In this document: positions 51,389 to 52,803 of the stretch, one piece after another
Layout: the number at the start of each line of letters is the position of its first letter
Position numbering within the stretch: position 1 is the first letter of the stretch
Assembly (NCBI RefSeq): GCF_001693515.2
Contig: NZ_CP042968.1
Location: 1,736,001-1,800,000 of the forward strand
DNA from: Bradyrhizobium paxllaeri
Lineage (GTDB): Bacteria; Pseudomonadota; Alphaproteobacteria; Rhizobiales; Xanthobacteraceae
DNA length: 64,000 bases
Direction: 5' to 3'
Position numbers and translations under genes: made by a program
The notes under the pieces: generated by a model
Told to the model about the DNA's origin: nothing
The model's database searches: none
What the model saw: only the letters and a program-made list of their open reading frames with translations

Positions 51389-51457
51389 TGTGATTAATTT
51401 CCTTAATTCGGCTGCTTGCGGTCGCCGAAACCCAAGGCTATAAGCCGCCTTCCAAGT

Positions 51458-51534
51458 CGGAGTGTGGCTCAGCCCGGTAGAGCACTGCGTTCGGGACGCA
51501 GGGGTCGCAGGTTCGAATCCTGCCACTCCGACCA
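51458..51534 (+). tRNA. tRNA-Pro (anticodon CGG)
   Basis: A complete 77-base tRNA including the encoded CCA. Acceptor CGGAGTG pairs with CACTCCG, the anticodon stem CTGCG/CGCAG holds the loop TTCGGGA with anticodon CGG, and the T arm has GGTTCGAATCC. It is divergent from tsaC, which reads away from it. The structured element begins about 115 bases downstream. Confidence 0.97.
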
Positions 51535-51649
51535 TTATCCTAGCCGTTCATTTTTCAGGACTTTTTCTGATTGCTGGCGGTTCCCGAGTCAACCGTCCAT
51601 TCCCTTCAAAAGCCGGATACAGGTCTGCGTTCCCGCGGCGCGTGGCGTC

Positions 51650-52200
51650 CGGGCCTTGTCAGGTTCACCCCCTGATACGGAGGGTGCAGGGAATGCCGGG
51701 TGCTCGCCGCACCCGCGGTCTCGTGTGCAATGTGTGTAGGAAATGCGCACACGAGCATACAGGTACAGCCGAAGCAGTCCGGCATTCCCTGCGCAATGGG
51801 TTGACGGCTTATGCCGTGGTCTCCCCGGAGCCGAATTCCTCTGGCCTCCGTCACTGCCGGATTAGCAGTTCATCGAAACCCGGTTGGGTTTCGATAAACT
51901 TCCGTCAAGCTTGGCACCAGCCACGGGTGTCAGGACCACACGGCTTTGCCGTACGCAATAAGCGCCGTCATCTTGCGCGCCGCCGGCCGCTCATGAGGTT
52001 CAACTCACCCTGCGACCAACCTGTGCGCCGACGCTCTTGCGTCCACCGCATCCCGCCTCACGTTCGTGACGACCGCGATACGCCCCTCGTGTCGAGGCGG
52101 GACGCGCGGAAAATGCCGCTGATTTGGGGTGAAAGGGAAGTGGTATATTTTTGCGCTGACGACTGGACGGCCCAAATCAGATTGAATCTGTTCAGCAAAT
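51650..52200. ncRNA. Long, highly structured non-coding element
   Basis: About 550 bases without a believable gene but with many perfect stems. Examples: 14 bp (51686-51699 with 51779-51792), nested 9 bp (51720-51728 with 51747-51755), 10 bp with a GGTT loop (51872-51881 with 51886-51895), 9 bp plus 3 bp (52051-52059 with 52094-52102, extended by 52047-52049 with 52104-52106) enclosing the small hairpin TCACGTTCGTGA, and 10 bp (52119-52128 with 52171-52180). Open frames across it encode Arg/Pro/Cys-rich strings typical of translated structured RNA or repeat DNA. It may be a structured RNA or a multicopy mobile-like element; the strand of any transcript is unknown. Confidence 0.5.
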
Positions 52201-52293
52201 TAGATTATTCGCGCGGCCGCCTACCTTCGGTTGTGTAGATCCGTTTCTGCACATAATCCTTTTGCGCCATGACGCTGAGCGACCCTGTCCGAG
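52201..52293. other. Intergenic end of the element, no gene seen
   Basis: About 90 bases between the structured element and the stop of the next minus-strand gene. No further feature is recognised. Confidence 0.4.
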
Positions 52294-52593
52294 TCATGGC
52301 GCCGCAGATCCTGCTGACATCCCGGCCATGCCACAGGCTTCGTTACCGGGAAAATCAGCAGATTGTTTTGACAGGGCGACTCGAGCGCGGGGTTGCGTAG
52401 AGGCTTGCGGGCGAGCGCGGACAGGAGGCGGGCTTGGTGGCGGCAGGTCATACCTGGCCGCGCGTTCGGAGACGAGCTTCCGATAAGCGACCGCCTGCAT
52501 CTCGAAACACTTTCGGAGCGCCGGATTGGTTTCTTCGGCGGCCAATCGCTCGAAGGTGAGCGCATGCTCCACGTACTCGGTCAACAACTTCAT
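52294..52593 (-). CDS. Small helical protein (rhizobial family, unnamed)
   Basis: A 99-residue protein. The N-terminal 50 residues (MKLLTEYVEHALTFERLAAE and FEMQAVAYRKLVSERAARYD) form two amphipathic helices of a type common among rhizobial small proteins. The rest (from PPPSPPPVRARP) is a disordered-looking Pro/Arg-rich tail. Start ATG 52593 is preceded by CGGAG eight bases upstream. Function unknown. It begins the accessory stretch between the structured element and the ligase remnant. Confidence 0.7.
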   Translation of the reverse strand: MKLLTEYVEHALTFERLAAEETNPALRKCFEMQAVAYRKLVSERAARYDLPPPSPPPVRARPQASTQPRARVALSKQSADFPGNEACGMAGMSAGSAAP

Positions 52594-52803
52594 CGGTCGT
52601 CTCCGATTTTGTCCACCCAATGCGCCAGGGGGCGTGCAAGTTCCTAACGGTCTTCCGGGCTTCATCGCGTAGAAGCAATTGCGTTCAAATGAGTGAATGG
52701 CGTGCGATGCTCACATCGAGTACGTGAAGGTATGTCGGGAAAAGATGGCATATGAGCGGAATTGGCCGTGCTCAAAAATTCGCGCGCCGTCTAATAGAGG
52801 CGC
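52594..52803. other. Intergenic region, nothing recognised
   Basis: About 210 bases with no supported coding frame. It contains the upstream regions of a minus-strand small gene and of the plus-strand microprotein at 52804. Confidence 0.35.

Follow-up and report, generated by a model that had tools for sequence, protein, structure and literature searches.

Results

The locus and its features

The window, by which we mean the whole stretch of DNA analysed, comprises 64,000 nt of the 8.38-Mb genome of Bradyrhizobium paxllaeri (NZ_CP042968.1, forward strand, positions 1,736,001-1,800,000), and all coordinates below are counted within it. An earlier sequence-only reading had placed a structured element at 51650-52200, downstream of a tRNA-Pro gene. 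Both are present, the repeat starting 81 nt after the tRNA, and the boundaries of its copies make the element slightly longer than proposed, at about 51616-52218. Read as a minus-strand molecule, the RNA has its 5' end near 52218 and its 3' end near 51616. The features are:

51458..51534, plus strand: tRNA-Pro (cgg), a neighbour and not part of the element
51462..52238, plus strand: spurious 258-aa open reading frame starting inside the tRNA, not a gene (stops and flat codon entropy)
51616..52218, minus strand: whole repeat unit (copy boundaries in 78 copies; best own-genome model match on the minus strand; strand test)
52120..52179, minus strand: helix H1 (52179-52173/52126-52120), in this genus
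52050..52103, minus strand: helix H2 (52103-52093/52060-52050), with inner stem 52086-52081/52071-52066
51793..52049, minus strand: core, with closing helix 52049-52043/51799-51793
52042-52029/51967-51953 and 51952-51932/51825-51804, minus strand: core arms
52017-51985, 51931-51913 and 51910-51853, minus strand: core hairpins
51826..51850, minus strand: small covarying hairpin (51850-51844/51832-51826), with the pair 51850/51826
51686..51792, minus strand: long helix H3 (51792-51774/51703-51686, continuing as 51755-51747/51728-51720)
51632..51653, minus strand: 3'-terminal hairpin (51653-51645/51641-51632)
51808..51829, plus strand: site matching the insertion point of an IS110-family element, with a putative CT core at 51821-51822

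The sequence-only reading had spoken of at least six perfect stems and listed five, and all five were found (51686-51699/51779-51792, 51720-51728/51747-51755, 51867-51881/51886-51900, 52047-52059/52094-52106 and 52119-52128/52171-52180). It had also judged the structure denser than chance, and the folding energies agree: against 60 dinucleotide shuffles, 51632-52138 gives a minimum free energy z of -7.5 on the minus strand and -4.7 on the plus strand, compared with -0.6 and -1.5 (30 shuffles) in one adjacent control of 501 nt (52250-52750). When the window copy is folded by itself, its minimum free energy structure contains 93 of the 146 consensus pairs.

Copies and distribution

Searching the own genome at the DNA level with 51400-52400 gave 46 matches including the query itself, three of which cover the tRNA part only. 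A covariance model of 171 positions (R1), built from 35 copies, found 47 matches in the same genome, 23 of them at 125 bits or more; the remaining 24 are weak (35-58 bits), and all but one lie opposite in strand to a strong match. The closest pair of aligned own-genome copies is 93% identical and the median pair 58%. By eye, no bias in orientation relative to neighbouring genes is visible in 18 own-genome loci.

Within Bradyrhizobium, 38 of the 40 sampled genomes contain a DNA match, one of them only at E = 4.7e-6. Across the host's family, R1 reaches E <= 1e-3 in 52 of 149 genomes, representing 18 of 47 genera, and E <= 1e-10 in 33 of 149; the former count is an upper figure, because the lowest-scoring matches do no better than a palindrome read on its opposite strand. 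Under stricter filters, 10 of the 297 genomes sampled from the host's order match, all belonging to the host's family, and none from the other sampled families. No match occurs in the phage sequences searched, and one plasmid record matches over 27% of the query.

The repeat does not encode a conserved protein

We found no reading frame conserved across the 78 copies. The 258-aa frame is interrupted by stops in 72 of 78 copies over 51690-52110, its entropy by codon position is flat (0.774, 0.802 and 0.783, with no excess at the third position), and length differences between copies fall about evenly into the three classes modulo 3 (30, 24 and 24). On these three grounds a protein-coding gene is rejected. 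The statement in the sequence-only reading that peptides of this kind recur proved right, in that 461 database proteins match the translation at E <= 1e-3 and, among the 120 matching proteins listed, all those with a readable name are called 'hypothetical protein'. The repeat thus accounts for hundreds of spurious hypothetical proteins, a recurring mis-annotation.

A strand-specific, multi-helix fold

To describe the fold we aligned 78 copies (the window copy, 17 own-genome loci and 60 loci from 20 other Bradyrhizobium genomes), with columns filled in fewer than half of them omitted before folding. RNAalifold gives -357.7 for the minus strand, with 161 pairs, versus -294.2 for the plus strand, with 150 pairs, and 21 helices are predicted in the unit of about 600 bp. 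The strands differ most clearly in their wobble pairs. Predicted minus-strand pairs contain 1487 G-U versus 216 A-C cells, compared with 638 versus 631 for predicted plus-strand pairs, and in the plus-strand structure, at pairs that are mostly Watson-Crick, G-T and A-C number 281 and 624. One wobble pair, 51761/51714, is nearly invariant, being present in 75 of 78 copies. In paired columns, the minor-allele transitions C to T and G to A occur at nearly symmetric rates (7.4% and 5.5%). Mutation bias does not explain the G-U excess; unpaired minus-strand columns are rich in A. We reject a plus-strand RNA on this wobble asymmetry, and the structured strand is the one opposite to the peptides noted in the sequence-only reading. 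G-T pairs are tolerated in single-stranded DNA as well, which we count against the RNA reading.

Covariation beyond phylogeny was found across helices. In a structure-limited test with a tree-simulated null, 19 of the 161 minus-strand pairs covary at E < 0.05, in ten helices (76 copies, without L023 and L165, the latter containing a stretch of N), and six slid controls, with partners moved by 1-3 columns, give 0-1 covarying pairs. An earlier run of like kind on the plus-strand structure, which shares many helices with the minus-strand one, found covariation (E < 0.05) in 14 of its 150 pairs; when that run tested all pairs, which is stricter, only three passed, two of them in the structure. Because the plus-strand structure covaries too, covariation supports the fold and not the strand, and our choice of the minus strand as the probable RNA strand rests on the wobble asymmetry together with the promoter described below. 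Taken as a whole, a strand-specific multi-helix structure is well supported.

A smaller alignment of diverse copies (A1), which also underlies R1, used 35 of 37 picked copies (L209 and L210 omitted, L165 kept). Its covariation score is 0.249 versus 0.138 when shuffled (reached in 0 of 500 shuffles), 96.9% of its cells are paired, and cells changed on both sides number 76 versus 24.5 (0 of 500). Pairs with a change on both sides (10 versus 7.6, 11 of 500) are a weaker signal, and further pair types (38 versus 35.4, 56 of 500) stay within the shuffles; two of the five measures are thus not outside the shuffles, the former more weakly so. In the consensus fold of the alignment, 10 of 36 pairs show compensatory change.

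The helices from 5' to 3'

Helix H1 closes a region of 46 nt with the conserved motif GTCCAG...AAAAATATTCC and holds up poorly outside the genus, where 58 of 126 cells are paired. In this genus an AT-rich, -10-like region of the RNA strand lies within the palindrome TGATTTG...CAAATCA of 52119-52180, a candidate operator that could act there. H2, the first helix after the promoter in other genera, is paired in 191 of 211 cells of the other-genus copies. The core contains the covarying pairs 51943/51814, 51928/51916, 51908/51855 and 52016/51986; in other genera its closing helix is paired in 133 of 140 cells, and the helices 51910-51901 (75 of 170) and 51893-51886 (68 of 139) are poorly kept. 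In the small hairpin, the pair 51850/51826 occurs as C-G, U-A or G-C (E = 3.3e-5), and in H3 the pair 51784/51694 occurs as U-A, G-C or A-U, also at E = 3.3e-5. The outer helix of H3 is paired in 99.3% of A1 cells, and in other genera H3 keeps 305 of 340 cells paired, with 61 both-side changes. After the 3'-terminal hairpin, no U-run terminator was seen in the copies displayed.

Pairing in held-out and same-locus copies

The fold extends to copies that did not contribute to it. Twenty further copies from the same genus have 83.5% of their cells paired, versus 36-44% for slid controls, and 20 copies from other genera have 69.9%, versus 35-44%. H2, the core helix and H3 are the best kept among the other-genus copies; there the wobble asymmetry, at 346:272, is weak, and several helices hold up poorly in what is a sequence-only alignment.

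We also compared copies at the same locus in 11 hand-listed groups that share flanks and are taken as orthologous. Seven match on both flanks (two of these also include members with a single matching flank), three were grouped by one flank only, and the remaining group, the window copy and L158, was recognised by its tRNA-Pro flank. Within these groups the divergence is 6-35% at unpaired sites, against 0.4-10% where sites are paired. Of the one-sided transitions, 91 preserve a pair and 12 create A-C (p = 3.5e-16 on the assumption of independent cells, which does not hold). A further 24 single changes disrupt pairs, and double changes are compensatory in 42 cases versus 3 otherwise. This pattern suggests that copies do not simply decay after insertion; gene conversion could be an alternative source of the same constraint, and the groups also share ancestry.

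A promoter on the structured strand in other genera

In other genera, TTGACA and TATAAT-like hexamers start the RNA strand directly before H2. A scan could score 83 of 98 copies (69 from this genus and 14 of 20 from other genera; the 15 without an anchor include 6 from other genera), and TTGAC[A/G]-N16-18-TATA[A/G/T]T lies 37-39 nt from the fixed anchor in 11 of the 14 scorable other-genus loci. Over the other-genus loci the mean z of the scan is 4.6 on the RNA strand versus 0.75 on the other strand. No near-consensus sigma-70 promoter was found in the 69 scorable Bradyrhizobium copies, whose best score is 6.40 versus 7.55-8.65 in other genera. Two copies in one genome of another genus (L242 and L243) are relatives with a strong promoter, and their homology of 86% extends over about 760 bp, including Br-REP2-like flanks.

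Ends, dispersal and flanking sequences

The closest pair of copies from another genus (L228/L229) is 90.5% identical, with homology that starts beside the -35 box and stops near GC[A/G][C/T][A/G]TCC. Other Bradyrhizobium genomes contain pairs at different loci that are 94-96% identical over about 650 bp, among loci chosen for equal model scores (one, L322, contains only part of the unit). Most of these pairs stop at the unit, and L305/L307 and L314/L315 extend into a flank. Such identity at different loci points to dispersal, from which we infer that the unit is mobile. It is a mosaic, because its 3' end (plus strand) differs between subtypes, and many copies follow REPs on the plus-strand 5' side, e.g. 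TGGATCACCCGC...GCGGGTGATGACA.

By eye, no terminal inverted repeats or target-site duplication, the features that would mark a MITE, were seen at the displayed copy ends, and two loci tried in a close relative (G001) yielded no clean empty site: the repeat is present there at one (L015), and at the other (L016) its absence leaves a 3' remnant and looks like a deletion. The search for an ORF-bearing autonomous version turned up only the inserted IS110-family element in own-genome copies. All 40 recurrent ORFs listed within 1.5 kb of 20 distant copies overlap the repeat itself. In Rfam 15, only the tRNA reaches the gathering score within the window, and permissive scans of L015, L228, L242, L316 and L232 gave sub-gathering matches only, the strongest of which (cspA and WsnRNA46, in L232) fall outside the repeat.

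Several Bradyrhizobium genomes carry different sequences 3' of the tRNA-Pro (51535 onward), a pattern like that of an integration hot spot. In related loci, homology to the window ends at the end of the tRNA-Pro. Among eight loci compared, the repeat is present in one (L158, beside the same tRNA-Pro in G019) and absent from the stretches examined of the other seven, six of which match over the tRNA. The 24-nt 3' end of the tRNA occurs once in the window, with up to three mismatches allowed, although a second one may lie beyond the window, and no integrase was found among six downstream ORFs scanned, two of which have no Pfam match. Since tRNA genes occur in 4 of 127 copy loci, an association of the repeat with tRNA is rejected, and this neighbourhood looks incidental.

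An IS110-family element at one exact site

In six own-genome copies (L035-L040) an IS110-family element with near-identical ends is inserted at one exact site. The element in L038 matches DEDD_Tnp_IS110 (PF01548, E = 7.7e-19) and Transposase_20 (PF02371, E = 4.7e-16), which places it in the IS110 family. The window copy is uninterrupted at the corresponding 51808-51829 and differs at 51819 (G for C). The leader of the element, 187 nt long, folds into stems (-79.2 kcal/mol), one of which surrounds TTCGTGCTC, a sequence that the left target of some copies matches exactly. The same stem holds CGGGGAG, complementary to CTCCCCG, a sequence that flanks the six insertions on the right and contains the putative CT core; this right guide was read by eye. 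The layout is that of the left and right target guides of a bridge RNA, as part of PMC11208160 describes them. A 9-nt same-strand match between leader and target arose in 19 of 3000 mononucleotide shuffles, and between the leader and one uninterrupted copy (L028) no complement is longer than 6 nt and none equals the proposed right guide. These matches are suggestive of a leader that acts as a predicted bridge RNA guided to the repeat.

Discussion

We propose, with a probability of roughly 0.72, that the feature belongs, as one of its copies, to an undescribed family of large structured non-coding RNAs of about 500 nt, specified by the minus strand of a non-coding repeat that is dispersed and spans about 600 bp. 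The sequence-only reading is borne out in its description of a structured and apparently non-coding element that occurs in many copies and has been mis-annotated as protein, and its suggestion of a large structured RNA is kept as probable after the tests of copies, covariation and frame. Findings that it had named as fatal (an absence of other copies, an absence of covariation, or one constrained reading frame) were looked for and none was encountered, constraint on a frame being judged by codon-position entropy and stops instead of dN/dS.

How such a family may spread and persist can be outlined more tentatively. The RNA gene would be copied as DNA, promoter included where present, to new intergenic sites, often beside REP repeats, by an enzyme supplied in trans. 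Each copy would be kept for the action of its folded RNA, which might serve the cell or help the element itself to spread, for instance if the RNA bound the trans-acting enzyme. A protein-free mobile RNA gene of this kind is a possible scenario: its RNA of about 500 nt might serve as a ribozyme or enzyme scaffold, and the gene would carry its own promoter in a large part of the family, disperse through the genomes of that one family, stay under structural selection wherever it sits and act as a landing pad for an RNA-guided IS110 element. As a whole we think this scenario rather doubtful.

Less likely than the RNA family is a non-autonomous DNA transposon that folds as single-stranded DNA, in the manner of IS200/IS605 or RAYT-associated elements, for which transcription would be irrelevant and old copies would decay. 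Hairpins near both ends, a strand-specific constraint, near-identical copies at different loci, the REPs that adjoin many copies and the missing recognisable promoter in most Bradyrhizobium copies would all fit it. IS200/IS605- or RAYT-like elements need terminal hairpins, however, and not a multi-branched covarying structure of about 500 nt, which exceeds that need; same-locus copies still keep pairing, and in other genera a promoter lies on exactly the structured strand. The two Y1_Tnp genes of the genome, which might have supplied the enzyme, lie some 21 and 89 kb away from the closest copy seen, and with neither near a copy we reject a RAYT link.

RIME, Bru-RS and BIME are types of intergenic mosaic repeat. 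That the unit is an ordinary repeat of this type, with fortuitous structure and no RNA function, agrees with its intergenic, mosaic and often REP-flanked nature and with the lack of orientation bias seen by eye in the 18 own-genome loci, but it is made improbable by compensatory change in many helices and in the genera held out of the fold prediction, by wobble pairs that hardly vary (51761/51714, for example) and by the promoter in other genera, and covariation speaks against it. A remnant of an intron (group II), of a retroelement or of an integrative element that targets tRNA genes, as the sequence-only reading had also suggested, would suit a large multi-helix RNA downstream of a tRNA whose 3' side varies between genomes, and is very improbable given the lack of any Rfam match (group II intron Domain V included), of a recurrent flanking ORF separate from the repeat near the 20 distant copies and of a second tRNA 3' end in the window, and given the 4 of 127 loci with tRNA genes.

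The preferred reading, a family of large structured RNAs, adds to a short list: to our knowledge, large structured bacterial RNAs form a small set, several with unclear functions, and large RNAs maintained in multiple, seemingly spreading copies are rare and lack an explanation. With some two dozen covarying copies in a genome, a promoter in other genera, a range covering the host's family and signs of dispersal, the repeat offers a replicated natural system for testing structure, function and spread. Possibly it also provides a bridge RNA with a natural target, one that is at once structured, conserved and repeated.

Comparison with known systems

HEARO, a large structured RNA, is also associated with mobile elements. 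The repeat differs from GOLLD, ROOL, OLE and HEARO in having about two dozen copies per genome, no associated ORF found and no match to a covariance model of Rfam 15. It resembles them, on the part of PMC12286853 that treats them, in that these too are large, multi-helix, conserved non-coding RNAs. Among the titles and abstract openings listed in our literature search, none described a unit of this size, which is weak evidence of absence since subscription journals lay mostly outside the search.

Within the genus, Br-REP1 and Br-REP2 are likewise structured intergenic repeats, and a Br-REP1-like palindrome adjoins one copy (L323), but their consensus sequences, as given in part of PMC5082802, are unlike the repeat, being palindromes some 20-40 nt long. 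The GTAG- and CGTC-tagged REPs with their RAYT transposases are similarly dispersed Bradyrhizobium repeats, possibly moved in trans, whereas REPs are palindromes of 20-40 bp (PMC3733652, in part) and the repeat has about 600 bp and a multi-branched fold. Identity with these REPs is ruled out for a unit of this size with 21 predicted helices, which REPs flank.

The closest parallel to the interrupted copies lies in IS110 elements that target REPs by bridge RNA (PMC11208160, PMC1525189 and PMC11187229, each in part), where a genomic repeat is likewise the target. In those systems, as far as part of PMC11208160 describes them, the target is a short REP, whereas here it is the core of a large structured repeat, addressed by a predicted bridge RNA.
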